Source: Henricia sp. BOLD:AAB3569
Taxonomy: Eukaryota; Echinodermata; Asteroidea; Spinulosida; Echinasteridae
Assembly (NCBI GenBank): GCA_037783545.1
Contig: JBBELK010000057.1
Span: 62,001-126,000 of the forward strand
Direction of reading: 5' to 3'
DNA: 64,000 nucleotides
Each line of letters begins with the position of its first letter. Position 1 is the first letter of the stretch. Below, piece by piece: positions 19,517-51,755 of the stretch. Position numbers and translations under genes: made by a program. Below the pieces are notes generated by a model. It searched no databases and was not told the origin of the DNA. It saw only the letters and a list, made by a program, of their open reading frames with translations.

Positions 19517-19634
19517 ATGCAGTGGTGCAAAGTGGTACTGGCATTGGTCTCGCTGTCTGTTTGTCTGTGCGTTCTTCTTGTGGCTGCCCAACAGGAACGG
19601 CCGCGATGGCAGTATCAGGGCTGCCATCTTGTCG
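19517..19634 (+). CDS. GPA2: GPA2 gene A, exon 1 (coding part)
   Basis: ATG at 19517 in the context GTCGCCATGC is followed by a hydrophobic signal peptide (VVLALVSLSVCLCVLLVAA) and the first knot cysteine in QYQGCHLV. The donor is TCG|GTAGGT. A TTTTGCAG acceptor ends at 19478, so the exon probably starts at 19479 with 38 bp of 5' UTR and a further non-coding exon upstream. Confidence 0.9.
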
Positions 19635-22600
19635 GTAGGTTCTCGAAATGTTTGCGTTCCTTGCTTGAACCAATCCGTTATCTATCAAAGTCTTGTTTTT
19701 GTTTTGTCTACAAGCAGGTTACGGGTTGCTATACTCTCGCGTGTTTGTCCTCCAGGAGCAAGACGAGAACAATTAATGTACATTCACCTGCTACACCTGA
19801 AACATTCCTGTCATTTCTCCATGAAGCTCTATTGCTCTCTTCATCTTTAGCTGGAGGACACGCACGGGAGAGGTAGTGACCTGTAACAACGTGAGTTTGT
19901 GTTTGCATCACTGATCTATACACTGGGTTCAGCATGCGATAACAGCTGTCAATACGGTCCAAAATTAAGGCCACGCGCCGACCATCTAATGCACCTATCA
20001 ATTGTTTTTCCCACCCTTCCTCCTCCGCGCTGCCCCACTCCTTAGGTGGGGATTTAGTGACGATTTTCTTGCCCCACACTGTAACAAATGCTGGGTAAAA
20101 TAAAGTTGGAGAATTTCCTTTTGACGTTTGTTGAGTCATATTTCCTCAACATATGCAGACAAATTTTATGTTGGGTAAAACATCCTGGGCCCATGTGCAT
20201 ACAAGGCTACTAGTTTAGCTGCCAACTAGTGCTTAGTAAGATTATAAATTCCCTAGTTTATACCTACGGAGTTGGCAACTAATTTGTGTTGCATAAAACC
20301 TCACTAGGCACATTGCTTACTAGTTGCATACTAGGACAATTTGGTTTGTAACTGATTTGGGTGCTATGGCCTTGGAGAGGAGGTGATTATGTCAGATACA
20401 ATAGGCTTGTAGACAAGTTTATTGTGTTTGAGCTTCGAACCACATTCCAACTGAGCATAACTCATTTCTAAGGGTCTTTGTAACATTGCATTACTGCCCA
20501 GTACTTACAAGTAATCCGTCATTGTGAAGCAAAGCTTAGGCACAAAGTTGTTTAGCTCCATGATTCTACGAGCCATGTTGTCCAAAGGCAGACTGATTAG
20601 TTGTCATCTAGTGACTTAGAGGTACCCCAGATCAACTCTAACTTTTGCCAGAATTTTAGAATGTTACTATATCTAGTTGGGTTTTATGCATCACAATTAG
20701 TAATCAACTAGGCTTAGTAAGCAACTTAAGTCCATTTTAGTTGCCAACTAGGCCTAGTAGCCTTTTATGCACATGGGCCCAGGACACCAACGTTGGTTAC
20801 ATGCAAAGTTCTGTAAATTGGGAAATCAGCAGCTATTTATTGTGTATTTGTTTTACCTCTTGCTGAAAGTATTAAAAGGTTGAGCATATATACAGACAAA
20901 CAACCATCTGTGGGAGATTGTAAAGACAATAGAGGGCGCTTCTCAAAGTATACTGTAAAAAATTCTGGGTAAAATAAAGTTGGAGAATTTCATTTGGACG
21001 TTTGTTGGGTCATATGTCCTCAACATATGCAGAAAATGTTCTGTTGGGTAAACCATCCAAGCGAACAACGTTGGTAACATTTGAAGTTCTATACGGCCCC
21101 TACGATGTTTCTCTCATCCCTAGTTACGTTGGTCAAGGGGTCCATTTATTGGGCACTTATTATACCGTGTGCTGAAAGTATTAAAATGTTGATGAGCAAA
21201 ATATACACTCATGACATTTATCTCCAGTTATTGGGGAATTTTCAACACAAAGCAGGACTCATTCTAGCAACCGCACACCTGGGAACAACCGCATACAAAT
21301 AATAATGGGTAACTTTTGCCCAACTTTTGTTATGCGGTTCAAATATCAATATGCCCATCTTTGGGGCGCAAAATACCCTTGGGTGCATGGTACATGTATG
21401 TACAATTGTTGGTTAAATTCTATAAACCAATGTTTGGGTAGATGTGCATATCTAATCGTTGGTTAAAAGTTAATTATCCAATGTTGAGGTAAATGTGCTT
21501 GGCCAATTGTTGGTTAAATTCAACTTAAAGCAGAACTATTTTCGTATATGCCCAACATGTATCTCGGGGCCAAATAATGCTCGACCTTTGGGTAAGCCAT
21601 GTTCATGATGTGACCAACATGCTGTAGAAAATATTTGCCGTATAATTACCCAATGTGTTGAGCAACCCAGGTCTAAAGTTGCTTGGCTTTGGGTGATTCT
21701 TCTTCCAAATACTAAAAACCACACTACTTCGTTACCAACATACTGCTAAAAAACTTGCTGTATATCCAACGTGTTGGGCAGCAGAGACGTCATTTTCTTG
21801 GATTGTGGTGTTAGTAATTTTATCACAGACTTGCAAATAATAAACCCGAAACACAGTGTGACAACATATTGTTGATTTTTTTTGTATATTATGTATATTA
21901 AAATGGGCCTTTTGCTTGATTTTTTCTTCAGTTTCCTCGGCTTGCAAATAATAAACAGCAATAATAGTGTATGTACTGAATATAGTGAAGGCTGTTGAAA
22001 TATATGCTGAGGAGCGCATGTTTATGTACGTGTTTTTTTCTGGAGTTGTTCCAGATGTATATCCTGATTTTTAAATCCTATTCAATATCTTGGTGTACAT
22101 TTTACTGGTGTTAAAAAGTAACGCTAAGTGATCATGCGCGAAAATCCAGCAACTTGATAGGCTACAGGCATTTCTTAACCAATAATTGGATATGCACATT
22201 CACCGATAGATTGGTTTATATAATTTAACCAATAATTGTGCATACAATATCACCCAACTCTTGGGTAAGGCTGTTACCAAACACCAGTTGGGTATTTTGC
22301 GCCCCAAAGATGGGTATGTTGATATTTGAACCAACGTTGGGTAAAAAGTTGGGCAAAATTTGCAGGGTGGGGATTTTAATGCATATAAATCAAATTTTCA
22401 GCGAACCTGGGGGAAAAACATGCATATTTCCCCCCAGGGGTAGATATTTTGTCACCCAAATGTTGCCCCGGGGTGGGGAAAACTGACAATCCACACCTCT
22501 TAGGTGGGGCAGGCCGGGGGTGGGGGAGGGGGGTGGCGGAAACAATTGATAGGTGCAGTACTCCCAAGACAATGCTTAGCATAGACTGCTCCCCGGTCTA

Positions 22601-25600
22601 AACGATCGCTTGCATTCCACCTAACACATGTAGAGCGAAGACAGTGTAACCAGTCCAGGCAAGTACTCCCAATACAATGGGGAGAATCTAAAATCCAGTA
22701 CAGTGTGTTCCGCAAAAAAAGGAAACCCATCTTTTCAGGCAAATTACACAACAACCAAATATTTCATTCCCCTAATGGTACGTTCAGGTGAAAGATCGCC
22801 CTTGTCCTCTTTCATATGATATGAAATTTTGATAGCATCATGCTTGACTGATCAGAGACAATTTGTAGTTGCTATTTCAGATTTGGTTTTGTTCGGGATA
22901 AGTGGGCCATTTATGTACACATCATGACATCATGACATTTCTTTTATTCCATTTCTTACATGGGAATAATTCCATTTCTTACATGTTAATAGTTTAATTT
23001 CTTACATGCCAATTATCGTCCATAAACTTGAATAAAAGTAAGAAAGAAAAAAACAGATTCTCTCCCATTGTAACTACAACCACCTGTTCTGAGCAAACAT
23101 AACTCTGGCACTATGAATTCAGATTGCCTTTGCTCGGTCATCCATGACCTTTCAATAATACTTTTGGTGTCACATGAAAGAGGATACAATGAACTTTCTA
23201 ATAAGGTTAATACTTTTGAGGATATCATTTTTCATTAATAAGTAATTTACCTGATAAGATGAGTTTCCTTTTTTTGTGAGACGATGTATATCGTTCTTAA
23301 GCGTTCTACTGCCAAGACAATGACGCAGGCGAAATGAGCAATAAATATTGGTGACATTTGCAAATTTTATGACAAAACAAAAAGTGGAGTCCATAGGTTT
23401 ATCTGGCAATTTTAAATTGCTATAAGATAATTTATTTCCCTTACGGTGTCTGCCGGATGAACAAGAAATCGGCACGTCACACAAACTGACGGTGTGGACG
23501 TAACTGTGATTGCCCCCAGAAAGTCCTAACCTTTAGATAGATTATGCTTGTCATTTGGCAAAATCATATTGGCATGATTAACTGAGACGTGTTTGTATTA
23601 TCCATGTGAAACTAAAATGTACTTCCTCGGTTTGCTATTTCATATTATGCATAATTTACGATAACAGCCCCGTATCTTTTTGAATACATCATTCAAAGGC
23701 CCTCATAAATGTTAAGTACTTATAGTTTGCTCCATCCTGTTTGACCTTTTTGCAGTATGCCTCACCGCCGTTTAAAAAACCATTATAATAGATTATTTTG
23801 TAGTTTATGATGCCCATGTGTGATGCACGTTGTCCCCTATAAATCCATCGTAAGACAGGGATTTTGGTGAGCATAGGGCCATATGATCTATATGACGCAC
23901 TTGTAAGTCGACGAAAGTACAGTCCAATCCTCACCCTTGGTACACTATAATCCTCACCATACAGTACGTCCACAACAGAATAGCAAGTATCAAACACTAT
24001 GCAGCCATTACAAAAGGACGTGTTGTTTTCGAACGTGCCCCAACGCTTGCGCCACAAAATGTTGCCCATTTAGCATCACTGCGTAAAATATAATAGGTTT
24101 TCTTATTTAGCTAAATGATATGACAAAATGCCTACTCGTGCATGACGCACAGTGACAATGTGACTGCCTCTGTCATGGCCGCCGGTGCAAAGGGTCTATT
24201 CTTGTTCAGAATAGAAGTTCGTTGAATAGAGTGAACTTGTGGATATTGACAAGGCACTGATTGACCAGTTACTTTGGAATCGCCTTCAAGACTGTCCCGC
24301 TTGCGTAATTTTTGTTACACCACTGCGAGGGGAAAATGAGGGGTTTTGTACCTTTTTAGCGTCTTGAGAGGAGACTATATAATAGGTCAGGGGTTAAGGG
24401 TTTAGGGTTGGTTACTTTTAAGGAATTTAGGGTTTTGAATTGCGGTCGGTTTGCAACCAGCTTCGTGGTCTGGTTAGAAGAGAGTTCGACTTGTAATCAT
24501 AAGGTCCCTGGTTCGAATCTGTGTTGTTTGGGATTTTTCGAAATTTCTCGGTTTCTTCTTTTTCTCTAATAGTGAGAGTAAGAGTTCTGGCTATTTCCAA
24601 GATTGTCACTTGAGAAGTATCGGTCATTGGAAACTTATTAGACTCTATTCGGGTTGAAAAATTGGGGTGTACCCCTCCAAGTGGACCTGTCCTTAGAAAC
24701 GAAGTCCAAGAAAGCACATCAGGCAAATGCACATCTTGCCCAGTGGCTCTTGCGAGGGCTGGTGCAGTCAGGCTCACCACAAAATGTGTTCATACACGAT
24801 ATTTTGGGATTTGCGTGCAGGTCGAAGTCGAAGCTAATGTCATTTTTTTTGCAAATCAGACACACGCATGAGCTTTGGATGGGGTACCAACAGCGAAGGT
24901 CAACAATATAATATATAGATGGTAGACGACGTTGGTGTCCGCAGGTTTCTCTTTAACACAAAATATCACCCGGAAAACCTTTATCGGGGAAGGCTTTCAC
25001 TGTCGTCTATACCGTCACTTTCTTTAGTAATGAAACAAATTTCGTGTGTACTGTGTTCGTGTTCGCAAGTCGTGTACGAGGATCTCGTGCGTTAGCAAAA
25101 TGTCAAGGCCATTTAGGCAATATTTTAATGTGACTTTTGCAAATAGCACATTTTGCACAGAACACTGGGAAAATCCTGTCCAATATCTATGAGGTTCACT
25201 TGGTAATGTATGCACGAATCTTTTCACAGTTTGAACTTCTACATTACATGTACATGTAGGCCTACAATGTATATTTAATGATGAGGGCCATTTTCTTTCA
25301 ATGTTTCGGAAATGAGTCTGCATGAAAAGTCTCGACGAGACCGTTCGGGACCCGTGAGCGGCTGAAGCACGACGTGTGAAACCGTGTTGTGTTTCTACTG
25401 CAATTAATAAAATATACATTTAAATGCGGCGGGAGCATTTCTGACACTATCCAGTTTCTTCCCAGCCAAAATGCTTCTTTGAGCCAAAATGTTGCCGAGC
25501 CATATTTATTTCAAATGCTTCTGCCGAATCGATTTTTCTAACAAAATTCAACTGAACCACGATGGCTGTAAACATTCATGCATGGCTGGTCACATTCATT

Positions 25601-28600
25601 AAACAATGACGAGGGGTGAGAAACAAAATTGCAAGAAGTAGCACTCCAGTAATTCAAACTTGGAGCAGTCTACCTATCTGAAACATATTAGTCCACTGCA
25701 CTCTTTTAAAGGAGCGTAACCATATCACATTCTCCCATAATTCTCCGGGGCTTACGTCATGGTTCCCGAGATTTTTATATCATAACATCTGTCATTTTTT
25801 TCCCATTATGAATCTGAAACTCCCGCGCTTCTAGGCCGCATATTTCTGAGGATATCGTCGAAAAACCACCGAATTTTTGTAAACTAATTTATCGAGAGTG
25901 GATCATGTGGACAGCAGGCCTGTTGAACACACCGCCACATATGCGTCCGCATACGAAAATTTAGTACCCCGGCTTCATTTACGTGAAACAATACACACAA
26001 AGCGCTATCGCGCCCAGACTAAGTGGCATATTTTGCGAATCTTGGTGGCGCTATACAGTTTTTCGGCTCCACGATCTCGGTCGGGTTCCTAGGAGCTCAG
26101 TGCACGGTCACACAGTATATGAATGGGGCACCGGTCTCTTGTCCGACATTCATGACCATCGATATATAATCACTGAATGAACAACGACGAACAACGACGT
26201 CTAAAATTGAAGCCACCGTCCGCCATTGTACCACCAAATACAATGCCTTGCCTAGACTGTTCATACTGTCTTCACTAGTCTACATGTGTTAAGTTGAATG
26301 CAAGCGACCGCATGGACCGGGGAGCAGTCTAGGCCAAGCATTGTTCGTGGGGTACAATGGCGGCCGGCGCATGGCTTCAATTCTCGTATAGCCAACTGCT
26401 ATTGCATGCTTCATCCAGTGATTATATATCGATGTTCATGGCACTTGTCAATGTCACTTTGTCAGTTCAAAAATGGGTCAATAAAAGTCTTTTTCTTTCG
26501 AAGTACTGATCCTGTGCATTTCGATATTTCGCATGGAGGTTCCAATATTAGTAGAAATTATTCTATAGCTATTAGCACTATGAAATATAGCCGGAAAAGC
26601 AAACTTCAGTCCCGATTTCGAATTCCGGGTATAGAAGCGAAACAGCGCGATTTCAGGTTGTGTCACTATTTACGGTTAAATCGTTATTAAAGGCAGAACA
26701 CATGATTGGTAAACCGTTGCAAATGGTTTTATCTCACTGTGTGATTGAAGATATGCATGATTAAAACCTACCTGAGCAAAAACCAGCTCCGTAGCCTACT
26801 TCGTCGAACTTTTGAGAAAACAGTCAAAAAAGGCTTTACGGTCACTTTGCCCCAAAACCATTTCGCCCCGAACCACTTCGCCCTGAAGTGGTTCAGGGCG
26901 AAGTGGTGCAGGGCGAAATGGTTTTAGGGCGAAGTGAATTTTCGTCTCATGAGACGAAAAATAATTGTTTTACTCATTTCTCAAAAACTATAGCACTTTA
27001 GACAAATCAATTTCAGGGGAATTTTACTACCGTCATCATGTTTATATTGTGTAAGTTATGTGTAAATCTGTGAACATTTATGATTTTCGAGATTACTAAT
27101 GATGTGTTGTTCTAACTTTAAACTTATAATCTCAAATTTTCGCCTTAATATTTGTTTTCTTTTTCTTGTCGTGAATATTATTTTTGGGAGGTATTTTATA
27201 TGGTTGTTAAGTTAGATCTAAATCAAATTTCCAGAAAATCCGGACACGCTCCTTTAACAGAAGGGAGTGTTATAATGAATAAAAAGAAGTTATCCATCTT
27301 GGATACAACATTGTCGCTGTCACAAATCGTCTTCTCAAAGCAAGAGTCCTAATTCGACGGTCTTCTACAGGCGTTGTGACTTTTGGATTACCACTTTTCG
27401 GGCGGTCGTTGACATCTCCTATCTCGTTGATTCAAATTGGAGATAGTGCTAGGTGATACATTAAAAGGCGTGCAACACGCCTTACAGATTGTCCAACTTG
27501 AAGAAATCCTAAAGCTTGTGCACGATTGGAAAGTTTAGGCAATTTGGCAGTGCCAGTCAAAAACATGCAGTCTGTGCTACACATTTGCGTTCCATGCAAT
27601 GCTCAATCCTTCCCACATCCGTTCCTTTTGATATACAATAATAATGTCTATTTCAACTTTAAATATTTCAACTTTAAAAAGTGTTCATCAGGAACTCGTT
27701 GTTGAGTTTATGTATGCGGCAGAATATGTTGTAGTCTGTTCAGGATGAATTATCCGCCCCTCTGTATTTTCACAAAGACACAATGGTCATGTTACTTGAG
27801 CTATGTTTCTTGGTAGAAAATAAACTAATATTAGATTGCTCCAAAACCTTTTAGCTAATAATTGAGGTTTGGATCACGGCTTTAACATTGCCGACTTCAA
27901 ACCGATTCACATAGGTTCTACCTCAGCAATGAAAGGAAGGGATGCATGTTCTCTTTTCTGACAATGCTTTGGACAGCAGTCGCATTCGAAAGAGGGTCAC
28001 CACAATGTAATACTGATACTGTAGGTTATGCAATACGGCCAAGTAGCCACCTAGACGAAGCGACATGATTATGGTAATTTTCTGACGGTAGCTATAATAA
28101 GGAATATTGACGAAGGGCTCTTTTCCAACACATAAGGCGGATGTTAATGGCAACAGCGCCCTAAGGTAGACATGTGCGCTATACAAGTGTCCACCATTAC
28201 ATTATTATTATTACATTACATTTAAAGGTTGTTTTTTATTAATTTTTTTACATATATGCATGTAACTATATTATATTATTGGAAAGGTATTTTTCCTTTG
28301 TCTAAGTGCCCTTCCTGATTCCTCTCCCTGCCCCCCGGGCCCCACCCCAACTGCAATGTAAAGTGACACATGACCGTTTTTGTTGCCTTTCATTATTATT
28401 ATTTTAGGCTACTCAAAACTCGTAAAAATAGCTGGATGCCGTGAAGTGAGAGTAAGCATGAATGCTTGCAGAGGCTACTGTGAAACCTACTCCATCCTGG
28501 CGCCTTACGATGCGATGACAGATGACAAAGTCTTCTTATCAGGTGGAAGTTGCTGCTCCATTGCAGACACGCACGATGTAGGTATTTCATCCCGTTTGTC

Positions 28601-29962
28601 ACTACCCTCCTCATCTGCATTTATGCTTAACCTCAGGGGCGTTTCTGAAACCATATTATCGTGTTGGCAGAACGCGCAAACAGGGTTTAACATATCGAGA
28701 ACGAACACGCAAACGACAAGATTCAGTGGGAGTGGATAATGAACAAAAAGAGCAAAGATGGCCGACATTGTTTACATTTCTCAAGTTTGTGATTAAAAAA
28801 AAAGACCCTGCGATTTGAAATAAATAAAACCGTGCACAATGGAGTTGTATTATGGAGGAGAACTGAGGAGGTCTTAGAACTCGGGCACGAATCTTGGTCA
28901 CATCAAAAGTCTTATCTTGCCACGAACGTCAAATATGTAGGTTTCTGTTCTAAGAGCTCCTCAGAATAATGACAAGTGTTCAAAGCATTTCACGTTCGCG
29001 TTTTACGTGCATCTAAACCTCCCTATTGTACCATAATGCTGCGTCACTAATATAAATCATGCATCACTGAAAACCTTTATTTCGTCAATATGTAATCGCG
29101 GTGGAAAATTAGTCATCCACACAGTTTGTCAGATGTCGACTTTTGTTTCTTAACCTACAGACAAATTATTAATGCTACAGAGCGTGATCCAAAACTGGTA
29201 AACACTGGATTAAAATCTCAAAATTTCATAAACCGTTCATTCATAGTGCGCACATATGCAAAGGATGGCGTCAAGTTTATTACTCAGGCCCACTGCGCTT
29301 GAAGTCGCATTGTATATCACAACTTAAAACAACGAGTAAGGAACAACTGCTTTACGACCGTGATTCGAGACAACCAGTTGGCTTCATAGCTCAATTGGTA
29401 GGGTGTCTGCACGTTGAGCACCGAATCCCGGTAGAGCCAAGTTGTTTTTTACTGCATCCAGATTTTCCAAACTCATGGACATCTGTCCACATTTGTATCA
29501 AACTTAAAATAACGCAATATTTTAAATGGATATGCAGTCACTGTGATCACCAAGAAAGATCGCGGTGTATTTTATTGGTATAGTAGTAGCTTGTAACAGG
29601 TGGTAGTTATCTTATCACTGCTTGTATTTGCCTTTTCGTGGAACAAAGAAACTAACGCAACAATCGGCATGATGCCTAATAACCATTGAAACAACCACGC
29701 ATGCTAGGAATTAGAGAAAAAATAATATGGGCCAATGAGCTATAAGTAACAGAGCTATGTGGAACACAATTCAAATCGATTCTTCGGATTTTTGTGATTT
29801 TTTTAATGCTGCTTCTCTCATTTTCTTTGAATGCAGGTGATAGTAACTATTCCGTGTGAAAACAACTTACACATTGAGGTGACGTTTAGGTCGGCAAGGA
29901 CATGCCAGTGTTCACTTTGCGCCCAAGACGACCCACCGACAGCCGATATCGGCACTGTATAG
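19517..29962 (+). CDS. GPA2: Glycoprotein hormone alpha-2 (thyrostimulin alpha), gene A, 3 exons
   Basis: Three exons (19517-19634, 28408-28577, 29837-29962) splice to 137 residues. Residues 1-24 are a signal peptide. The mature chain has ten cysteines (36, 50, 60, 64, 88, 89, 103, 119, 121, 124) in the GPA2 cystine-knot pattern: GCHLVG, AGC, MNACRGYC, GGSCCSIADTHD, TIPC and TCQCSLC. The donor at 19634 (phase 1) matches the acceptor at 28408, rebuilding the conserved GCHLVGYSK junction; the second junction is phase 0. In other animals GPA2 pairs with GPB5 as a secreted hormone acting on leucine-rich-repeat GPCRs. MNACRGYC and the length set it apart from GPB5. No N-glycosylation sequon is present, unlike vertebrate GPA2. 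A 13-residue tail follows the last cysteine. Looks intact. Confidence 0.93.
19990..20085 (+). repeat. CCTTAGGTGGG dispersed repeat, copy 1
   Basis: Shares CACCTATCAATTGTTT, a pyrimidine tract and CTTAGGTGGGG with 50655-50765 (same strand) and 22415-22560 (opposite strand). Family unknown. Confidence 0.65.
20085..21215 (+). repeat. Tandem duplication in GPA2 intron 1, one unit split by a MITE
   Basis: GGGTAAAATAAAGTTGGAGA occurs at about 20092 and 20966. The sequence from there through CCTCAACATATGCAGA and on to CTGAAAGTATTAAAA is present in both units. Removing the inserted 600-bp element gives a unit of roughly 275 bp. Confidence 0.75.
20184..20783. mobile_element. 600-bp MITE in GPA2 intron 1
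   Basis: TIRs: left CCTGGGCCCATGTGCATACA, right (reverse strand) CCTGGGCCCATGTGCATAAA, both continuing AGGCTACTAG. It splits the first unit of a tandem duplication whose second unit (near 21050) is uninterrupted at the same point. Internally it holds a ~50-bp block shared with 39717-39765. Confidence 0.82.
21305..22368. mobile_element. Non-autonomous TIR element (~1.06 kb) in GPA2 intron 1
   Basis: The left arm holds TTTGCCCAAC, TTCAAATATCAATATGCCCA and TCTTTGGGGCGCAAAATACC. The right arm is the inverted counterpart with a few changes. TTGGTTAA-rich subterminal repeats follow in each arm. No transposase, so non-autonomous; superfamily unknown. Confidence 0.75.
22415..22560 (-). repeat. CCTTAGGTGGG dispersed repeat, copy 2 (inverted)
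   Basis: The reverse complement reads TGCACCTATCAATTGTTTCC, then a C-rich tract and GCCCCACCTAAGAGGTG, matching the copies at 19990 and 50655. Confidence 0.6.
22590..24130. other. Intron 1 sequence without recognised features
   Basis: Within GPA2 gene A intron 1. Contains a short TTTCTTACATG tandem (about 22938-23010) and a 126-codon open stretch on the minus strand (23689-24069) that resembles nothing I know. Confidence 0.45.
24131..24197 (-). mobile_element. Short MITE, family M1, copy 3 (half element)
   Basis: The reverse strand reads AGACCCTTTGCACCGGCGGC, then the interior GGCAGTCACATTGTCACTGT and GCGTCATGCACGAGTAGG, as in copy 1. The second TIR is missing. Confidence 0.75.
24455..24545 (+). 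repeat. tRNA-Thr-like fragment (SINE head or pseudo-tRNA)
   Basis: A D-arm-like GTGGTCTGGTTAGA, an anticodon loop CTTGTAA (anticodon UGU, threonine) and a B box GGTTCGAATCT follow in tRNA order. The acceptor stem does not close, so it is a SINE head or a decayed tRNA copy rather than a working gene. Confidence 0.5.
26151..26441. mobile_element. Inverted-repeat element in GPA2 intron 1
   Basis: Arms of about 115 bp: the left has ATCGATATATAATCACTG, ATTGAAGCCA, CGCCATTGTACC and TGCCTAGACTG. The right repeats these inverted. The spacer is about 60 bp. Non-autonomous DNA element, family unknown. Confidence 0.75.
26843..26936. repeat. 45-bp-arm hairpin of GGGCGAA repeats
   Basis: The left arm CACTTTGCCCCAAAACCATT continues TCGCCCCGAACCACTTCGCC; the right arm is its reverse complement with four mismatches. 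The loop is about 4 bp. Each arm contains repeated GGGCGAA-TGGTT words. Confidence 0.85.
26939..26960. repeat. Perfect 22-bp palindrome
   Basis: TTTTCGTCTCA followed by its exact reverse complement TGAGACGAAAA, immediately after the hairpin at 26843-26936. Confidence 0.85.
28408..28577 (+). CDS. GPA2: GPA2 gene A, exon 2
   Basis: Acceptor ATTATTTTAG|GC, donor CACGAT|GTAGGT. Encodes YSKLVKIAGCREVRVSMNAC then RGYCETYS and SGGSCCSIADTHD, five of the ten cysteines. It is nine bases shorter than exon 2 of gene B; the difference falls in the variable loop between CRGYC and GSCC. Confidence 0.93.
29383..29447 (+). repeat. tRNA-like fragment
   Basis: ATAGCTCAATTGGTAGGG matches a tRNA D arm (A box), and AATCCCGGTAGAGCCAAG resembles the T-arm/acceptor end. 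The anticodon arm and T loop are shortened, so this is a decayed tRNA-related SINE piece in GPA2 intron 2. Confidence 0.5.
29837..29962 (+). CDS. GPA2: GPA2 gene A, exon 3 and stop
   Basis: Acceptor TTTGAATGCAG|GTG. Encodes VIVTIPCENNLHIEVTFRSA then RTCQCSLC, the C-terminal knot cysteines, and the tail AQDDPPTADIGTV before TAG. The intron before it is 1.26 kb. Confidence 0.92.
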   Translation: MIVTIPCENNLHIEVTFRSARTCQCSLCAQDDPPTADIGTV

Positions 29963-31216: not shown

Positions 31217-34200
31217 AGCTGGTCTGGCCATCATCATGGCCCGTCCCGTCGCAAACGACGATGGAGACGGCGTCTCTCACATTCATCAATGTACAGTCGT
31301 CTCGAAGAGGATAAACCGGTATGTCCAATGGAGACGATTGCTGGCAGTTGCCTCCCAACAATTAAGTGGCATCCCAAAAGTGGCAAGGTTACGTTTCAGG
31401 ACGTCTTTGTATCGCAGTATAGGTCAACCGCGAGGGCGAGGAGCGTCGGCAAGTTCACCATAGAGGACATCCTTGGGGATTTGGCCATCAACCTGCCTGT
31501 GCACATGACCGACCCATCGAAGGCGACGCTGTCTCAGCATGGTAAACAAATCGGCAGTTCCGGTGAGCTGCAGGATGGAGACGTTTGGGACATGATCTCG
31601 CCAGGAGATGCCAAAAATGGAACAAAGGCATCGGAAGTGGAAGGAGTTGAGACGGCGCTCTTGGCGACGGTACGTGGTCCAAGATTCACTGCAGTACAGC
31701 AGGACACTAAGTACACCGGCCATGTAGACGCTAATCTTCAGTTTGATGGAGAGGTCTCGGTTGCTCCAAACACGTTGGCGGAGATGACCGAATGTGGTTG
31801 CGGCCTTACCGATGCGGGAGTCCAGTTCAGCCCCAAGGGAGTTATTGTTGGAGATGATCGAGCCGAGGTATGCAAACTCATCAACGACATTTAGGCTAGA
31901 CCCGTTGATGGAGATCAGGGGAGGAGCTATGGAACCCTGCGAGAGGACAACTGTCCTGCCGAGGCTGATCCGCATGCCGAACTCTGACCAGGCTTTGGCA
32001 AAGAAATTATTTAGGGATTGGAGGTCGGATTCCCAGTGGGCGACAAGAGCAGCATCATCTGCGTACATGAGTTCTCTGATGAAAACGCGTCTAATTTTAG
32101 TCCTGGCACGGAGACGAGAGAGGTTGAACAGCTTTCCTGAGCTGCGGGAATGGAGCAAAACGCCAGAAGGGTCAGGAAAGGCACGCAGGAGGAGAGCCGA
32201 GAAGAAGATTCCGAACAAGGTGGGAGCAATTAAGCACACAACCTTGTTTGACGCCGCACAGGATCGGGAAAATTCCATTGAATTGGACTGTGGCTTGCAT
32301 GTCATCGTGGAAAGCTACGAGGATGATAGGCGCTTTAAGATAGAGAATAGGCCTGAGCGACTGACAGAGTCAAAAGCCTTCGTCAGGTCGATAAAGACGA
32401 CGTAGAGTGGGCGCAGTTGCTCAATGCACTTCTCCTGTAGCTGTCTAAGGAAAAAAACCATATCGACAGTTGAGCGGGAAGCACGAAACCCACACTGGCT
32501 CTCTGGAAGGACTCTATCAGCGATGACCTGTAACCAGGGAAGTAGTACACGGGCAAGGACCTTGCCGGCTATGCTCAACAAGGAAACACATCTGTAGTTG
32601 TTACAGTCATGTCTGCTACCTTTGTTTTTGAAGAGAGTAATTATATTCGCATCCTTCAGGTCTTGTGGTAGACAGCGCGAGTGCCGGCAGAGCCGGAATA
32701 CGTTGAAAAACTCGGTTGTCAGGGCAGCACCACCACACTTCAGAACTTCAAGAGGAATGCCGTCTGCACCAGGGGACTTGTTGTTTTTAAGACCACTGAT
32801 TGTCCGTTGCACTGCATACAAGGTTATGTCACTGTCAAGCTCATGCAAGATGGGAAGTTGTGGCAGAAAGGCTAATGCATCGGAGCACACTTTAACATCG
32901 CTAGCAAAGAGAGAGCTGTAGTGCTCTACCCAGTGGTCAAGCTGTGCTGATGGGCCAGTAATAGCTATGCCAGAAGCTGACAGTAGTGGAGCACTCTTCT
33001 TTGGGGTAGGACCGATAGCCTCTTTAATACCATTGTACAGGCTACGAAGATCCCCAGAGTCAGCGCAGTGTTGGATATGGGCACTGAGACCAGTCCAATA
33101 ACGGCAGAGCGCGGTACGGACAAGGCGTTGAACGTTACTCCTAGCGGCAAGTAGCACATAGGCCGAAGAGCGGGTGCGAACCATGGTGGCTTTGATTCTG
33201 GCTGTTCGTTTGGCCTCTATTGCTGGAAGCAGAATGTCAGCGCTATCACGGAACCAGTCGGGTTGTGTTCGAGTACGTCGACCAAAGGCGGTAAGAGCGC
33301 AGTCCGTGACTGCAGACTGGGATCTCGACCATGCGGGACCAGGCTTGTCAGGCGTGGGAGATGAGCCAAAACGATCAGTGAGGAGCTCTCGGAACTTGGT
33401 GACGCGGTTGATGTCTCGGGTAGCAGCTGTATCAGCTGCAGGGATTGGCTTCGGCTGAGCTAGATGAGATTTTTTTGAATGTATACTGAGCTTGCTACGG
33501 ACAAGGGCATGGTCAGTGTTACAGTCTGCCGAGTGCATGCTACGACATTGTTTGACATCGCACAGCTGTCGCTTCCTGACGATGATGTGGTCGAGTTGAT
33601 GCCAACGATGTGAGCGTGGATACATCCAGGTGGCCTTGGAGCGAGGAGAACCTGCGAAGAAAGTGCTGGTGAGACACAAATCGTGGCCAGCACAGCACTC
33701 TAGGAGGCGCTGCCCGTTGTCATTCAATTAGATCCGATGCGTGCGTTGAAGTCTCCGACAAGCACAATGTTATCCCCGGCTGGAATGCTGAGCAAAATAT
33801 TTTCGTGGAGTTGGTAGAATTCATCCTTCTCCTCAGAAGCAGCCATCAGAGTAGGAGCGTTTGCAGAGATGACAGTGACCAGATCACTCCTAAGGCGAAT
33901 CCGCATGGACATGAGACGGGGTGAGTGGGAGACAGGTTGTTGGATGCATGGGAGAAGCGAGTTCTGAATTGCGAAACCAACCCCATGCATAGGTATTGCA
34001 GTGTCAGGGTGACCACACCAACAAAAAGTTAGCCTCACGGACTGAGCCACTGCCGGTAAGCCAGGTCTCACTAAGAGCACACACATTTATGCCCAAACGA
34101 GTAAGTTCCAGATCACTTTCTTGGTGAAAAAGATTGCCGATCAGTATGGATACTCAAGGAGCGAACATTCCAACAAGCTAACACGAGAGAGGCAGTAGCA

Positions 34201-41213: not shown

Positions 41214-42412
41214 TATACCGTATTTCACACGAAGACGCTCTGTGAGTTGGTTAGATCTGAAAGTACAAAAACCGAACATGACATTTTACTGCAAGCATCA
41301 TGAGAATGTTACAAACAACATGAAATATTTGTCCTATCTCATTTATACCACAGTCACTAGCTTTCAATACTTATGCCCTAAACCTACCGGGTAGGGCTAG
41401 AAACCGAATAAAGGGGAGTGAGGGACAAATTGAGACAAACTACAAATTACACAAATATTGTTGGGGTTAGGAGAGGGGTGATCGGAAAAACACTTCATAA
41501 AAAGAAATGCGTGTGCAAGGAAAAGTCATTCCCCTTGCATCCCAATTGTTTCGATAAGGATTTACAAGACTAGCCTCACTTCCTCTTTGCAATCATGACT
41601 TATCAGTCATCAGTAAGTGCAAATATAAATAGGAAACAAAAATTTGATATTAAAAAAAAAGACATTTTTTGTCTGCTACTCTCACAATGACTTGTGCATG
41701 AGGTCTTAGGTGATGTATGACTTCTATTTCTAGGTAAAGAATTAAGTAGTGGTCATGGCTTCAAATCCTGTGCAATTTCTTTAAAATGACTCATCTAGCA
41801 TTGGAATCTGAATGTGCGGATTTAATGGGGAAAAAAACAAAATTTCGAGTGAGAAATACATTTTTTGAGGACACACTTGGAATATTTCAGCCTCTCTCAT
41901 GTTTTGCACACAAGGTCTGAAGCCATGATCATTTCTTTCCCTCTTACCTCCTGATGATGCTTACCGGTGAACATGCATGCTGAACAGTTACTCGTTTCGG
42001 GGAAAAAAAACCAGTTGTTTTATAATTTTCCTCGATGTTAAAATACATGTGTTGCATTTTAATCTTTTAAATTGCATTTTTCTAATTAACTGCAGAAATT
42101 CACGACCCCCAACAAGCATATTTGGATTCAGCGTGTCAAAATCTATATGAAACAGCTATTATTTTTTAATTCTCAGAGGGGTGCCACGAAGGTGAAAGAT
42201 AATCGGGGACATTTCTACGCCTATTCATTCCATTATCTCAGCCGTGCCAATTGAATGGAAAGGTTCTTCGTACATACATCCCCGTACTGAGTTCTTGTTC
42301 TTGTATAAAATGGCAGCTTTAGTACGCGGTAGACGTAAAGTTGGGTTGATTAAAGACTATTTGGTCAGTATTGGAACAATTTAAATAACGAAAACGCGGT
42401 TAAACAATAAAA

Positions 42413-42755: not shown

Positions 42756-42852
42756 GAATTCGAATTCATTTCTGATGAATTCGAAGACCTATAATCACAT
42801 TGATATCAAAATAAAATATTGGATTCAGAATTCAAGACACTTGGTTCAAATC

Positions 42853-44744: not shown

Positions 44745-45029
44745 GTTGTTGTTGTTGTATATTTTATGGCATCTTTGGCAACTAAGGCCCTTTATGCCAT
44801 CAACTATACGGTTTTAGCTTTAACTATACTATATTATCAACTTGAGATGACGAACAAGGAGTTGCAGTTTTAGAAGTGGGAGGAAAACCCCCAGAGAAAT
44901 GCCCCAGGGGAAAACCCACGCGGTCAAGTAGGGACTGCAAACCCAATCCACATACACGCCCCGGATTCGAACTCGGGACGCCAGAGGTGAAAGGCGAGGA
45001 AAGAACTCGTACGCCAACCCGACCGCCCT
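44745..45029 (-). mobile_element. tRNA-derived SINE, copy 3, with 12-bp target duplication
   Basis: Reverse-strand full-length copy of the SINE at 9911. AAAAGATGACGT flanks it exactly (44733-44744, 45030-45041), proving retroposition. The B box here reads GTTCGAATCC. Confidence 0.92.
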
Positions 45030-45572
45030 AAAAGATGACGTATTCACTTCGGCAGTCTATGGTCGATAACGTGCGTAAGATAATTACCTTAAGTTATCGT
45101 ATTCGAGACACATACAATGGTGATTTGAAGTTGATCGAGTTGTGTACGACAATCGTCAATGTTTAGAGCAACCGAACTTCCGACAAGTGAAAGGCCTTCA
45201 AGTTCACATTTCTTTCCCATTTTAGTTCTGGCGTTGTTTTCCTGAATCATATTTGATAACCGTGCCGGTCTACGTATCACAAATGAATGAGAATGACAGG
45301 TATTTTGTTTCTTTCTTCCCTCCCCTTTACCTTTCCTTCAAGACGGATGTCCTTTCTTTTTTAGATGTCCTGTAAGGCCTTCCCATCCATACATTTTCAT
45401 CTAAATATTCAGTAATATTTTGTTTTCGCAAGTGACAACTGATCGAGTTCGTGTGTTGTTTGCATTTGTTTATGTGTTGTATGCACTATTTCAATTGGTA
45501 CAAGCTTCCACTTTGTTGGAAATAATGTAACAGAAATGCGCCCAAAAGAGGTATGTCACACTGTAAAATTAT

Positions 45573-45615
45573 TGGCCTCGCGTTTCGACCCTAGCAGGGT
45601 CTTCTTCAAAGGCAG
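45573..45615 (-). ncRNA. Degenerate hammerhead-like motif at Penelope 3' end
   Basis: The minus strand reads GCCTTTGAAGA, then the hairpin GACCCTGCTAGGGTC, then GAAACGCGAGGC. The closed stem II followed by GAAAC is typical of Penelope-associated minimal hammerheads. The CUGANGA box is degenerate (TTGAAGA), so it is probably inactive. Confidence 0.4.
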
Positions 45616-47085
45616 AGAATGACTAGGACACACAGAAAATAGCACATTCAAACACCACGCTAAGGCAAACACAAAGGGAGGCAATCATGCAAAAAGAGAG
45701 GTTGTGATGAGTGAACAAAGCTGGTTGCATAATGTCTGCCTGGGATAGAAAGCTAGGGATTATAAGGGACTTTAAGGAACAAACCAAAGGACAAGATGGG
45801 GGGGGGGGGGGGTGGTGGTAGGAAAGGGGAGGGATTAGGGTTGGGAAAATGGGGAAATTCGGGGGTGGGGCGGTGTTGTGAGGAGGTATGGTGGGGCAGG
45901 CAAAAATGAGGTGGAAAGTAGGTGGAAATGAGGGAGAAAAATTAAGATAATAATCATTTCCCTCCTGAATGTTGAGACCATGTGGCTGGATGGTGCGGAG
46001 TCGTTTAATCCAAAATTTCTCTCTGCTGAGTCGAACAGAGTCTGTGTGGTGGCCAAGAGCCTCAATACCCTGTATAAACATGTCAGAGATGGAGTGATTA
46101 GTACAGTTGTTCACCAACTGGGGCGTCAGTTCTCTTGGTGTTTACTGTGGATCTGTGACCGTACAAACGTTTCTTGAGTGTGGTTTTCGTCTTGCCCACA
46201 TACTGAATACCACAGACTCTGCAAGTGATGTGACCCTTTGTCTTGAAGACAGCTCCGGTGGAATGGCTTCTGAAAGAATCAATTTCCATGGTGTGCTCCT
46301 GACATGTTATGCACCTAGAGTTACATTTAAAGGTTCCATGGGGAATGGGAGTGTTAGTGGAATTATCAGGTGGGACTGCGGATCTGACTAGAAGGTCTCG
46401 CAGATTGGGATGGTAAACTACCGATTGCTCTTCCTGAACTGACCGCTGAAGACGATCTGAGGTATGCAATATATGGAGATTAGAACTGGCAATCTGGCGG
46501 ATGGGGGAAGGGAAGAATGATAATTGACAACTAGAGGAATTCTGTTGAGGCTATGAGCTGGGGGGGTTAGGTTTCCCAGCAAGCGCAAGATCCCTGGAAA
46601 GGGGCTTGGCTTTATGAATGGACCTGTGTACCGCACGTGAACTATGCCATCGTAAAACAAGGTGTTTCTTAAGGTCCTGTGAGTGACGGGCAAAATCAGA
46701 GTCATTATAACATGCGCCGAAGGCGAAGAGCTTGGCTATATGCAATACCGGTTTTGCAATGTCTGGGATGGCAGCTGGTTGAGTGCAAGTACTGGTGTTT
46801 ATCTGTGGGTTTAACGAATAGGTCTGTGGTTAGGCCATTGTTTTCCTTGCGTACAATGACATCAAGGAAATGAGTCTCAGCGGTGGAGTACTCTGATGTG
46901 AACTTGTTTGTCCTGTGGTGGAAAGAACTGATGTGGTCAATGAAAATACTGAGGCTGTTTTCATCACTAGTCAAGACAAAGAAAATGTCGTCAATGTACC
47001 GCCACCAAATCCAAGGGCGGCACGGGCCGAGGCCAGCATGCGCTCCTCCAATTGCCCATAAAGAGGTCCGTGTTAAGTATACGTT
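45573..47085 (-). mobile_element. Penelope-like retroelement 2 (RT plus GIY-YIG endonuclease)
   Basis: Reading on the minus strand: WWRYIDDIFFVLTSDENS (RT motif C, about 47020-46970), TAETHFLDVIVRKEN and TTDLFVKPTDKHQYLHSTSC (RT thumb), then the GIY-YIG endonuclease at 46300-46100 with CRVCGIQYVGKTKTTLKKRL and H-STVNTKR. The C-terminal part (46117-45960) includes REKFWIKRLRTIQPHGLN. The N-terminal half of the RT is missing and the rest lies in several frames, so it is dead. The 3' end carries a hammerhead-like hairpin (45573-45615). Confidence 0.88.
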
Positions 47086-47092
47086 TATCCGT

Positions 47093-48060
47093 TAAACAGC
47101 TAGTATCCCCCCGTCCACATTTTTTAAGTTTTCATGTTTATCATGGAGGTGTATGTGTCTACAACACCATCACAACTTGTTTTCCACAAAAAAATCGACA
47201 GGCTTTTGCTTAAAACGCAAAGCAGTTCCGACCCTCTTCACCCGAAATTCTGAAACGCTCGAGGTCACTTGGTTTGTTTATCAACAGGGTTTTGACGTCA
47301 TCCTGAGAAACATACAAAACGGCCTGTGCAGTATTGAATGGAAAATACACGAAGTGAATGTTTATCATGCCTGTTTTGTCCTTGTGATTCAAAATACAAA
47401 CGTGAAAAACACATGTAATATGACAACAATCTACTATTACCTGTTTTGTGAAAAAACGATGAAATTGTGGCTCACAATGAAGCTCTTTTGAAGTGAATAC
47501 TGGTGCATTGCGACGGGTGGTTTTGTCACGGAACGAACGGCATTCACAGCGGTCTGTGTACAGTATGGAACGGTGCCTGCGGTCTCTGCGGCCCACGTGT
47601 TTGAACATCGGCCGGTACAAGTTAGAATGAGCGACTCATTTTTCTCTCTCTTGGTAATAGAAATGAAAAACTTTGGGCTCTTTTTTTTTCATAGTGTTTG
47701 GTGAAACATACAACCACGCAGCTACTGGGCATATCTCTGGCTTTTTGGACCAACAAAATTCTTCAAAAAACACCATCTAACAGAGACGGTTTTCCAAGTT
47801 TTGTGCGTGTAAACGTATGGAGCTAACAATCGTGTTGACTTCTCTTTCTCGGGATTGCGTCACGGGGTCACGCGCATATCATGAATACCTAATGAGCGTT
47901 TCAGAAATCGCGAAAATCTCATTTCGAAAACGCACTTTTGGTTGCAATTTATCCACTTAAAACCGACAATTAAAAAAAGAAATCCACGTCGGCAAGAGGG
48001 ATGTTTTGACTATCGAAAAAATTCTAACTGCTAGATTTTCCTTCAAGGGGGATTCTAGCT
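47093..48060 (+). repeat. Dispersed repeat, copy 2 (uninterrupted)
   Basis: Begins ACAGCTAGTATCCCCC, like the copy at 15674, and is contiguous here. It starts just beyond the truncated 5' edge of Penelope-like element 2. No coding capacity. Confidence 0.8.
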
Positions 48061-48064
48061 GTTT

Positions 48065-49080
48065 AAGATGCTTGCATTGGTCGTGTTCTGTATGGAATTT
48101 GGTGTGAAAACAACCAGAAATCTGTACGTTTGCATTCGAATATTGTGGCTTTAGTTGCACTTATCGTGTGTAAACATCGACCAATCGGGCAATACTTTTT
48201 CCATGTTTTAATACTGCAAGTGGCTCAATTACCAAGGCTACACACCATCAAAACGACAAATAACGCACTTTATGTAAATTACCAGAAGACATGTGCGTGT
48301 AGCATTATACAACTATTATACGAACCATTATTATCTAACCGCAAAGTTTTAAGTTAACGATCTAATATCCTGTAATATATCACGTATCTCGTGGCAACCC
48401 TGTTAAAATTAAGTCCAAAATTAATAAATAAAGGATAAACAAATAGCTATACATCTTGAAATCGTCGCTATTTAAATATGCGATGTTGTTTTGTGGACCA
48501 ATCGGGATACGAGAAAGCAATTTCCCTATAAAGAATTTTTAATTATACGACGAAACCAAATTTAAAAGTGTATTTGTTCCCCAAAACCTGATTTACTTAT
48601 TGCACTTGTGCAGTACACCATGGAACGAGATTTGTCAAGAGTTGACCACGAGAGGGCGATATTTCTCAAAACAAGGCACTCGTATATAGCTGATTGCAAA
48701 ATTACATTGAACTTTTTATTTTTGATATCGCTATCTACATTCATGTAATTTAAAAGCGCTGTTAGAAAGAAGAAAATAAATGACAACTAACAATTAAAAT
48801 AAAACAAACCAACAAAAAGTCACAAAGAGATAGCCCATTGATATTGCCAGCCGAACAAAGTTGGTATGTGTATGGTACGTTTCTAACTCTTTGAAATGAG
48901 AACCGGAAAATTATTAGGAGTTATCAATGCCCTTTGATTTAATATTTGTAAAATACCCTTTATTAACTTACATTTTCTTAATAGTGCTCCATATTGGTTT
49001 TTAAAAATAAATTCGGCTGAAAGTTCAGTTCCTTTAAATTATAGTTGTGACTAGAATACCCCAGTCTCTTCTAATACGGG
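48065..49080. other. No recognisable gene
   Basis: AT-rich unique-looking DNA. Confidence 0.45.
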
Positions 49081-49089
49081 TTCAGTAAG

Positions 49090-50270
49090 CCTTTTCGAAG
49101 TTATACTCGAGCACTAACCAACTCGACATTGCAACCCATTTCTTTGGCAGAACAAACGGTTCAGTCCGATAGCAACGCCTGTGCGGTTATTGGCATGTGT
49201 CAATTCTCACCAAACTTCGTGTCTTATGCGCCTGTCACACTTTGCCGGATCGGCCCTACGTACAAGAAACGGATGGTATTTCGTTTATAGTTTGTCAAAT
49301 CGTCAATCCGGTGGACAAAGTGTAAATTTCCATTTAGCAGGAGCGTACATGCACGGTCCAGGGGCCGAATAAAACGCACAAACAACGCACCTGGGGCAAT
49401 TGTATACAGGACTGTGGAACGTGCGCAAACGCATGAGAAACGAACATGCACCGCATGCCCACAGGACAAAACGCACTAGGAACGAATGGGTGACGCATGA
49501 AACGTGTATGCCCTTGCCGGTGTCAGTTGCAGGCCGGTACATATGCGTTAAACATCAGTTCCATGTCCTGTGCATATACTGTGGATGTGCTGTAGATATG
49601 CTGTAGATATGCTGTAGATATGCTGTAATCATCAGTTATGGCCGTCCTGTCCGTTTGTCATCCGTATACATGCGTTTTGACCGGTAGTCGTCCTGCAGGC
49701 ATCCTGCAGGCGTCCTGTGGCTTTGCGGTGTGTATGCGTTTGATGTGCTGTACATGCCCGTTCCATCTGTCCCATCTCTGTAGGACGCCTAGCGGATGGA
49801 AACGTGTGGAAAACGAGCAAGTACAGTACACATACAGGACAAAACGCACAACCATCGGACAAGGGCCGGATCTTGCTATCCGTTTCTGGCGAGAAAAAAA
49901 TGTTTGTGCATGCACAAAGTTTTCTGGCCGCTTTTACGGACATCAACTGACGATGAACGTCCATCCAAAGGATAAAAAGGACATGAAACGCATTTCAACG
50001 GATATCAACGGATGCAAACAATCCACATTCGTTTCTCATGCGTTTGCCTTATCTGGCAAAGTGTGACAGGCGCATTAAGAATGTTTTTTTATTTTTATAG
50101 TTGTTGTACATATAAATATAGTTGGGAAATGAAATGTCAACTATTTATATCCAAAAGAACTTTTTAAAACAATCGTATAAGACACGAAGAATGTCAATTA
50201 GGGAAGAATGGATACATGTCGGACTGAACGGTCTGTTTATCCAATTCAAAACGAAGTACAACTTCGAAAA
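49090..50270. mobile_element. Older inverted-repeat element hosting a MITE
   Basis: Outer arms: TTTTCGAAGTT, AACGGTTCAGTCCGA and CTTCGTGTCTTAT occur at 49092-49226 and, inverted (AACGGT as GACCGT on one side), at 50165-50268. The inner arms abut the younger MITE 49227-50074. Confidence 0.65.
49227..50074. mobile_element. Harbinger-like MITE (848 bp)
   Basis: TIR TGCGCCTGTCACACTTTGCC at both ends, flanked by TTA (49224-49226, 50075-50077). Subterminal regions are also inverted (AACGCATGAGAAACGAA). A short ATATGCTGTAG tandem lies at 49575-49625. No transposase. Confidence 0.82.
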
Positions 50271-50451
50271 GAATTAGTGTACAAGTTATTGTATTATGAT
50301 TACTTCGTCATTTGACTCCAGTCTTCTAAGTGTAGCTAGCAGTAGTATCGGCGGTCATTTCTGTCGTTTTGTGGCCCATCTAATAATCTTAACAGAGGCT
50401 TCAGAATCCTTGCGGTACCGGAGTGCTTCTTGGGCCGTCTGGAAAACTTTG

Positions 50452-50547
50452 CTACGGTTTACTGCAAAGCGTGCAACTGCAGTCCTTAGCCGATTTGAAC
50501 GTATTCTTGTAAATCTGGTTGTTTTCGCATTGCAACGTGAAATGAAC
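50452..50547 (-). CDS. GPA2: GPA2 gene B, exon 3 and stop
   Basis: Encodes VHFTLQCENNQIYKNTFKSA then KDCSCTLCSKP before TAG, the C-terminal knot cysteines with a three-residue tail. Intron 2 (50548-51576) is 1.03 kb and holds a palindrome and an 18-bp tandem repeat. Confidence 0.92.
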   Translation of the reverse strand, partial: VHFTLQCENNQIYKNTFKSAKDCSCTLCSKP

Positions 50548-51755
50548 CTGTTACAAAATACACAAAAAAAGTACGTCAAAAAGTTTTTTTTGGGTAATTT
50601 TCAAACAAATTCGCTTTGGAATTGGTCACAGATGTGAACGAACGGAAGTTGGCACTGGCACCTATATCAATTGTTTCCTCACCCCTCTCCTCGCTGCCCC
50701 ACACCTTAGGTGGGGGTTTGGTCACGTTTCTCATTCCCCAGGGTCGGAAATGTGACCAATTGAAATAAAAATGGGGGCGGACTGTGGGGGGTGGAGGTGT
50801 GTGTGTGGGGGGGGGGGGGGGGGGGGGTGTAGGGGGGGGGGGGGACGATTTTTTCCACAAATATGGGAAAAGTGCCAGATCCTTGTCATTATTAAATACG
50901 AAGTTTCAAAGTTTCCCTATTAACATGTAGATGTTTCGTCATTTCAGCTGGAATATTTATACAATACGTTTATTGTGCAGCTGAGTAGCACATATTTGTA
51001 GTTAAAGGAGGGTGTTGAGAGTTTTATGCCATGTCATATGTCATATTTGTCTCCTTACCATTCTAAAATTTCACGCCATTTCCCCCCACCCCCCCCCCCC
51101 CCCCCACCTATGGCAAACACCGGCAATCGTGGACGTTACCTAAAGCTACAAATTTGAAATTTGAAACGTAATATGGTTTGTGCCCTAACCTATAATGGTT
51201 TGTGAAACCTATTATAGGTTTCACAAACCATTATAGGTTAGGGTACAAACCATTTACGTTTAAAATTTCAGCTCCGTAGCGTAGCTTTAGGTAAAATTAA
51301 ATTAGGTGTCATTAAATAAACTCTTTCCTACAGAAAGTTTCTTTCCTACAGAAAGTTTCTTTCCTACAGAAAGTTTCTTTCCTACAGAAAGTTTCTTTCC
51401 TACAGAAAGATTAATGGTACGTCCCCGATTGCCGGTTAAAACATGTTTGGGTGCGTGTGTGTGGGTGTAAACTCAATCAGACTAGTGCGGTGTTTCCGTG
51501 TAATGTTTCCGCCATTCGGAAGCGAGAACGTGTTACCCATGCCAAGTGGATATCGCCTGAACTGCATTGGACTTACGTCATGTGTTGTCGATATTGCACA
51601 GCACGATCCGTGTGACGTAAATAGTTGGGTACCGTCGCTTCTGTCCATCGTGGCCGTATCAGACAAGAAGGAATATGTCAAACAATAACCTCTACACGCG
51701 TTCATCCGGATGTGGGCGACGTGGCAACCTGGTACTTTGACTTCTTTTTTGTAAC
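50452..51755 (-). CDS. GPA2: Glycoprotein hormone alpha-2-like, gene B, exons 2-3 (partial)
   Basis: Two exons (51755-51577 and 50547-50452) carry nine of the ten GPA2 cysteines. Acceptor GTGTAG|GTTAC, donor CATGAC|GTAAGT, next acceptor GTAACAG|GTTCAT. Exon 2 starts in phase 1 and exon 3 in phase 0, exactly as in gene A. Key segments: VKVPGC, MNACRGYC, THGSCC-like SHGSCCAISTTHD, and NTFKSAKDCSCTLCSKP then stop. The order and frame are intact, so it looks functional, closer to the usual invertebrate GPA2 consensus than gene A. Exon 1 (signal peptide and the GCHLVG cysteine) was not found up to position 64000; given gene A's 8.8-kb intron 1 it may lie outside. Calling it a paralogue rather than an allele follows from its position and divergence. 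Confidence 0.9.
50655..50765 (+). repeat. CCTTAGGTGGG dispersed repeat, copy 3, with G-run
   Basis: GCACCTATATCAATTGTTTC, a C-rich tract and CACCTTAGGTGGGGG. A long G-run follows (50807-50845). Confidence 0.6.
51136..51294. repeat. Foldback element with perfect 30-bp inner arms
   Basis: Inner arms 51183-51212 and 51214-51243 are exact inverted copies (CCCTAACCTATAATGGTTTG, then TGAAACCTAT) around one base. Imperfect outer arms extend it to TTACCTAAAGCTAC at each end. It lies in GPA2 gene B intron 2. Confidence 0.88.
51321..51413 (+). repeat. 18-bp tandem repeat, ~5 units
   Basis: Unit AAAGTTTCTTTCCTACAG, nearly perfect, so recently expanded. Confidence 0.95.
51577..51755 (-). CDS. GPA2: GPA2 gene B, exon 2
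   Basis: Encodes YKKEVKVPGCHVAHIRMNAC then RGYCLTYSFLSDTATMDRSD and GTQLFTSHGSCCAISTTHD. 179 bp, phase 1 to phase 0. Three codons longer than the gene A exon in the variable loop. Confidence 0.92.

Follow-up and report, generated by a model that had tools for sequence, protein, structure and literature searches.

Does a starfish carry two genes for the alpha chain of the thyrostimulin (GPA2/GPB5) hormone, and if so, how old is the pair and with which beta chains would its products associate? The question is raised by a stretch of 64,000 nucleotides from Henricia sp. BOLD:AAB3569 (hereafter the window), which corresponds to C57:62001-126000 of a 740.7 Mb genome assembly, C57 being contig JBBELK010000057.1. 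A preliminary description of the window had claimed two GPA2-type genes, here termed A and B, lying tail to tail, with shared intron positions and phases and yet with divergence at about half of their residues. We conclude that A and B are most likely the asteroid GPA2-1 and GPA2-2 genes, encoding ten-cysteine cystine-knot alpha subunits of the thyrostimulin kind, that they stem from an old local inverted duplication, and that they are clustered with three GPB5 genes. A second alpha chain is as such not new, being already published for Asterias rubens (PMC4772807) and Apostichopus japonicus (PMC6586643); what is informative is the gene order and the likely age of the starfish pair, two such copies being already known from starfish transcripts.

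Two intact genes and a second haplotype

The coding exons of both genes are as follows (window positions, unless a contig is named).

19517-19634, + strand: gene A (GPA2-1), coding exon 1, hydrophobic start to GCHLV-G, phase 1 donor
28408-28577, + strand: gene A, exon 2, cystine-knot core MNACRGYC...GSCC, phase 0 donor
29837-29962, + strand: gene A, exon 3, final Cys-x-Cys-x-x-Cys, then stop
C57:140078-140195 (window-equivalent 78078-78195), - strand: gene B (GPA2-2), exon 1, hydrophobic start, AGCHLV-G, phase 1 donor
51577-51755, - strand: gene B, exon 2, cystine-knot core
50452-50547, - strand: gene B, exon 3, final Cys-x-Cys-x-x-Cys, then stop

The spliced coding sequence of gene A is an open frame of 137 amino acids in three exons, with GT/AG at both introns (phases 1 and 0). 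The part of gene B that lies in the window has AG acceptors and one GT donor in the same phases as gene A, and yields 91 amino acids without exon 1. That first exon, which the preliminary description had left to be found, lies 14 kb past the window end; it has 118 bases, the same size as gene A exon 1, and with it intron 1 measures 26.3 kb and the complete protein 130 amino acids. Within the window neither strict nor relaxed exon-1 signatures gave an exon 1 for gene B: the signature of a hydrophobic start plus C-x-x-x-G directly before GT occurs once on the two strands, at gene A exon 1, and the motif NACRG[YF]C occurs twice in the six frames, once per gene. Hydrophobicity alone predicts a signal peptide for each protein.

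The tail-to-tail arrangement holds, the two 3' ends facing each other across 20,490 bases, and the introns are identical in position and phase (1, then 0). Over the shared exons 45 of 88 aligned residues are identical (51%), and the alignment scores 239, where the best of 2000 shuffles reached 48. Of the 88 codons, 37 differ at the first position, 29 at the second and 59 at the third; nonsynonymous divergence (dN) is 0.48 and synonymous divergence (dS) is saturated and not computable, a pattern that marks an old pair in which both copies have been kept under constraint.

We note that a second contig, C862, behaves as the other haplotype of this locus, since pieces of at least 400 bases with more than 92% identity sum to 28,033 bases at 97.1% and keep their order. 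Its copy of gene A has 1 mismatch in the 118 bases of exon 1 and is identical at 169 of 170 bases in exon 2 and at 125 of 126 in exon 3; its copy of gene B exon 3 is identical at 95 of 96 bases, and exon 2 of gene B lies beyond its reach. A search of the assembly with the product of gene A exon 2 (E values up to 10) returned three places, namely A, the haplotype copy of A, and B. An assembly artefact, which the preliminary description had named among the outcomes that would overturn it, or a pseudogene copy, could be entertained on the grounds that 26 kb separate exons 1 and 2 of gene B, the former being outside the window, and that C862 stops before exon 2. However, the second haplotype has all exons of A plus exon 3 of B, so the pair is not an assembly artefact; the same order is seen on two haplotypes at about 97% identity, the two genes differ in half of their residues and yet have intact frames and splice sites, and other starfish have orthologs of both. 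This explanation is already largely refuted, and we give it a negligible chance.

Assignment to the GPA2 family

Gene A, and gene B even without exon 1, pass the Pfam cut-offs for both Cys_knot and DAN, and A and the full B have a cystine-knot domain, with C-x-G-x-C and C-x-C, behind the hydrophobic start. The mature part of each protein has ten cysteines, with the alpha-type CC and the final CxCxxC, in alignment with other GPA2 proteins (B being aligned without exon 1); bursicon has eleven (PMC4772807). The best match by sequence among solved structures is, for both, chain A of PDB entry 8enb, whose title is the LGR ligand alpha2/beta5 from C. elegans; the alpha2 chain of this ligand (8enb, 8end, 8enf) is thus the closest solved relative of A and B by sequence, and it shares about 26% identity with AlphaFold models of their orthologs in structural alignments. 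The PDB molecule name of 8enb_A hints at bursicon, a candidate that was dropped on the title of the entry. Neither protein has its best similarity to beta chains, and no gonadotropin beta chain in the PDB was matched by A or B at E values up to 10.

With gene A as the sole query, the protein database yielded no match at E 0.001; a two-row profile retrieved thyrostimulin alpha-2 proteins, with the best matches in echinoderms. An 11-row profile found 141 proteins, of which the best 120 were listed; these are clustered at 90%, so that copy numbers per species are lower bounds. Among those listed there are also matches in hemichordates, amphioxus, molluscs, annelids and arthropods, and one slug entry is named bursicon alpha. 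The nearest named relatives of A and B in the database listing are thyrostimulin alpha-2 proteins. The preliminary description had proposed such searches along with a tree of GPA2, GPB5 and bursicon; the searches place A and B with GPA2, and the trees presented below were built from GPA2 rows only, without bursicon or GPB5. As a side observation, none of the 22 GPA2 proteins taken as ambulacrarian, A and B included, has an N-glycosylation sequon, despite the name glycoprotein hormone.

Orthologs in other starfish

Of 35 proteins fetched, 30 were used with A and B in a 32-row tree (P0011, P0013, P0091, P0108 and P0111 were left out), and a 22-row tree was made by removing amphioxus and nine protostome-side rows, two of these nine without database name; the two trees have 134 and 133 columns. 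Rows without database name are P0006, P0010, P0044, P0050, P0054 and P0055 in the larger set and P0006, P0044, P0050 and P0054 in the smaller. We treated P0006 as the GPA2 of a sea cucumber, since both its length (132) and the RR at 34-35 fit the published AjGPA2P1; P0044 and P0054 were assigned by their tree place beside P0006 or A. japonicus, and P0050 to the hemichordates, likewise by tree place. The groups for clade tests were chosen after the first tree was seen.

Gene A groups with Asterias amurensis, Patiria miniata and Acanthaster planci (support 100/99 with 32 rows and 100/99 with 22), whereas B groups with Asterias rubens and Acanthaster (99/97 and 96/94). Within these groups A adjoins Asterias and B adjoins Acanthaster, with 58% and 73% identity, respectively, to the nearest row. 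In B's group the A. rubens entry carries the name alpha-2-type 2, and its 130 amino acids equal the published length of ArGPAP2-2; A's closest neighbour, from A. amurensis, has 135, as published for ArGPAP2-1. Judged by these groupings, gene A is the ortholog of Asterias GPA2-1 and gene B is the ortholog of Asterias GPA2-2. The crinoid row clusters with asteroid type 2 (96/88 with 32 rows, 80/86 with 22), and B outscores A against all four hemichordate-type rows (122-137 versus 98-119 bits). Asteroid type 1 has the longer branches in the 32-row tree, and A's loop is three residues shorter than B's.

Age of the pair

Since both types are found in Asterias and Acanthaster, the duplication is older than the split between these two starfish. 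It probably also predates the split of the eleutherozoan classes, although the two trees do not settle this. There are at least two GPA2 entries each for Acanthaster, S. purpuratus and Amphiura, each pair on longest contigs of equal size, which suggests, but does not prove, that the copies share a contig. For sea cucumbers there is at least one named GPA2 entry, the other type being represented by unnamed sequences, one of which fits the published AjGPA2P1, and an alpha-2.2 is named in a brittle star. In Apostichopus japonicus, of another echinoderm class, two GPA2 precursors have likewise been described, AjGPA2P1 and AjGPA2P2, and the authors speak of GPA2a/GPB5 and GPA2b/GPB5; the part of that report on these precursors differs from the present case in naming one GPB5 and in having the second GPA2 as a partial sequence (PMC6586643).

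Alternatively, the duplication might be peculiar to asteroids, in which case sea urchin, brittle star and sea cucumber would owe their second GPA2 to separate duplications. In the free trees, with 32 and with 22 rows, asteroid GPA2-1 is indeed not joined with the type-1 rows of these other groups, and the shortened loop (28-30 residues) is restricted to the four asteroid type-1 rows, 18 of 22 rows having 32. Holding the seven asteroid rows of both types together as a clade costs 5.6 log-likelihood units with 32 rows and 5.4 with 22, and is marginally rejected in the first case and not rejected in the second (p of the approximately unbiased test, p-AU, 0.0495 and 0.0675). However, holding all eight type-1 rows together is compatible with the data in both sets (p-AU 0.44 and 0.55), and with 22 rows this constraint has a better likelihood than the free search. 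The residues before xxSA also follow the division into types, in a pattern noticed after the fact: among the 22 rows [VI]T is present in seven of the eight type-1 rows and in none of the 14 others, and Y-x-[DN] in all 14 others and in no type-1 row, Patiria type 1 having neither before its SA motif. With the same 22 rows a duplication in ophiuroids only is rejected (p-AU 0.027), though one in echinoids only (0.114) or in holothuroids only (0.127) is not. We therefore regard an asteroid-only duplication as unlikely, while keeping it in view, and favour one that predates the eleutherozoan classes.

A still older origin, before echinoderms and hemichordates parted, with one copy kept in hemichordates, would account for the weak placement of asteroid GPA2-1 beside the hemichordate rows in the 32-row tree (75/71), as well as for the best match of A outside asteroid GPA2-1, which is the hemichordate Glandiceps. 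We consider this improbable, given that all 18 echinoderm rows can be held together without rejection (p-AU 0.39, 32 rows), that hemichordates have Y-x-[DN], as type 2 does, and that asteroid GPA2-1 is a long branch of unsure placement. The duplication favoured here, in the common stock of the eleutherozoan classes, agrees in part with the preliminary description, which had called it old and lineage-specific: it is old, shared within asteroids and probably among echinoderms, but two copies are not confined to this lineage. For instance, the snails Babylonia areolata (P0075/P0076) and Bradybaena similaris (P0064/P0066) have at least two GPA2-like entries each, on contigs differing in size, and second GPA2 copies thus seem to have arisen elsewhere too.

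A linked cluster of GPB5 genes

A Cys_knot search of the assembly returned 13 places. Four of those over the cut-off are GPB5-type exons, located on C57, at its counterpart on C862, at 380 kb of C862 and at the start of C862; a fifth place, below the cut-off and close to where C266 ends, is another copy of the exon at the C862 start. Three two-exon genes were assembled from these and their surroundings.

C57:60700-60897 and 41340-41552, - strand: GPB5a, two exons, 136 amino acids, 8 cysteines
C862:382189-382386 and 380221-380409, - strand: GPB5b, two exons, 128 amino acids, 10 cysteines
C862:9715-9957 and 174-362, - strand: GPB5c, two exons, 143 amino acids, 10 cysteines

The intron is at the same place in all three genes, and the coding sequence of GPB5a starts 1.1 kb outside the window, on its left side. 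Unlike A and B, the three products match vertebrate beta chains in the PDB; GPB5b and GPB5c also match the C. elegans beta5 chain, and for GPB5c the PDB score of Gremlin-2 is slightly better than that of any beta chain. The order is GPB5c, GPB5b, GPB5a, GPA2-1 (+), GPA2-2 (-), over about 0.57 Mb (measured on C862, except for the distal portion of gene B, which was measured on C57). The C266 copy of the last GPB5c exon, at C266:1465102-1465269, is probably the other haplotype and has a tyrosine where the C862 copy has a cysteine. A cystine-knot exon with a CRCC motif, which we take to be bursicon-like, lies at C266:636339-636623 and at C171:1492791-1493081, the one on C266 being 0.83 Mb from the GPB5c copy.

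Close linkage of alpha2 and beta5 is described as the usual bilaterian state (PMC4079206); in place of a gene pair, Henricia has two alpha genes and three beta genes spread across about 0.57 Mb. The subunit numbers fit the five published for Asterias rubens, where two GPA2-type precursors (135 and 130 amino acids, ten cysteines) and three GPB5-type precursors (136, 141 and 130 amino acids with 8, 10 and 10 cysteines) were described in 2016 in Open Biol. (PMC4772807); the corresponding lengths in Henricia, another asteroid, are 137 and 130 for GPA2 and 136, 143 and 128 for GPB5, with the same 8, 10 and 10 cysteines. An eight-cysteine GPB5 without the last two is reported from A. rubens, O. victoriae and S. 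purpuratus (PMC5627052). The section of the A. rubens paper on these chains covers precursors and is silent on gene order or linkage, and in the literature that we searched, with most subscription journals outside the search, no report of echinoderm GPA2/GPB5 gene order or of a linked alpha/beta cluster was found.

Proposed roles and partners

Several points weigh against the assignment of A and B to GPA2/GPB5 hormone chains. Exon joining, expression and untranslated regions of both genes are predictions from genomic sequence, and we infer both their secretion and their pairing. Gene A resembles GPB5a and GPB5c, and gene B resembles GPB5c, at about 18-20 bits; GPA2 rows score 74 bits or more with A, far above its GPB5 resemblance. 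The fold does not name the family, as the orthologs P0003 and P0002, in their AlphaFold models, resemble C. elegans alpha2 and Norrin equally to within one Z unit (Z 9.5 and 9.6 for P0003; 10.4 and 9.7 for P0002), and Foldseek puts Norrin first for P0003; the lead of alpha2 over Norrin for the B-type model is under one Z unit, which we treat as a tie, and the fold was therefore not used as support. Finally, a genome search for the receptor with GnHR_trans (PF12369) gave no match anywhere, the controls being equally silent.

With these points in mind, we propose that each alpha chain would be secreted and would most likely find its partner or partners among the GPB5 chains of the cluster, the dimer acting on an LGR1-type receptor. 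The preliminary description had suggested that the second alpha chain possibly has a different dimer partner; three GPB5-type candidates for partners are present in the cluster, and either alpha chain may use any of them. GPA2-2 probably retains the ancestral role, as its slow change suggests, and GPA2-1, with its faster change and shorter loop, has probably come to share or to change that role, through its site of expression or its choice of beta chain. Alternatively, gene A may no longer encode a GPA2/GPB5 alpha chain, its product acting alone, as a homodimer or with a partner other than GPB5. The longer branch and shortened loop of asteroid GPA2-1 might point that way, and the part of PMC5627052 that treats the subject leaves room for monomers or homodimers. 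Such a departure is to our minds very doubtful, since gene A retains the full set of ten cysteines together with CC and CxCxxC of the alpha type, alpha2 is the best solved match by sequence, and GPB5 genes are linked.

Vertebrate TSH, LH and FSH arose from an alpha2/beta5 pair through duplication of its genes (PMC4079206). We speculate, with somewhat less than even confidence, that an alpha duplication in the echinoderm or eleutherozoan stem took place independently of the vertebrate one and was kept in one cluster with up to three betas, in which case a starfish could make up to six dimers, perhaps for one receptor. A second, independent expansion of this kind, in which a single cluster unites two alpha genes with three beta genes, would offer a comparison for how duplicates divide partners and receptors. 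Most echinoderms are reported to have one ortholog of the GPA2/GPB5 receptor, and gene models of all five subunits make this receptor-number puzzle (PMC8286064) testable.

Other features of the window

Neither the Rfam scan nor the tRNA scan returned anything in the window. The remaining features are listed here.

8534-9400, + strand: open frame of 288 amino acids without Pfam match, located between gene A and GPB5a; may represent one exon of an unknown gene
18688-19050, - strand: fragment, no match
31427-33727, - strand: retroelement with RVT_1 match, between the two GPA2 genes
46101-46550, - strand: fragment with a weak GIY-YIG match below the Pfam cut-off
51322-51409: 18-base unit in 4.9 perfect copies, within gene B intron 2
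55804-62124: tandem arrays, repeat units of about 146-173 bases and about 332 bases

The fragments at 46101-46550 and 18688-19050 are presumably Penelope-type elements, and in the tandem arrays the 146-173 base units are present in both orientations.

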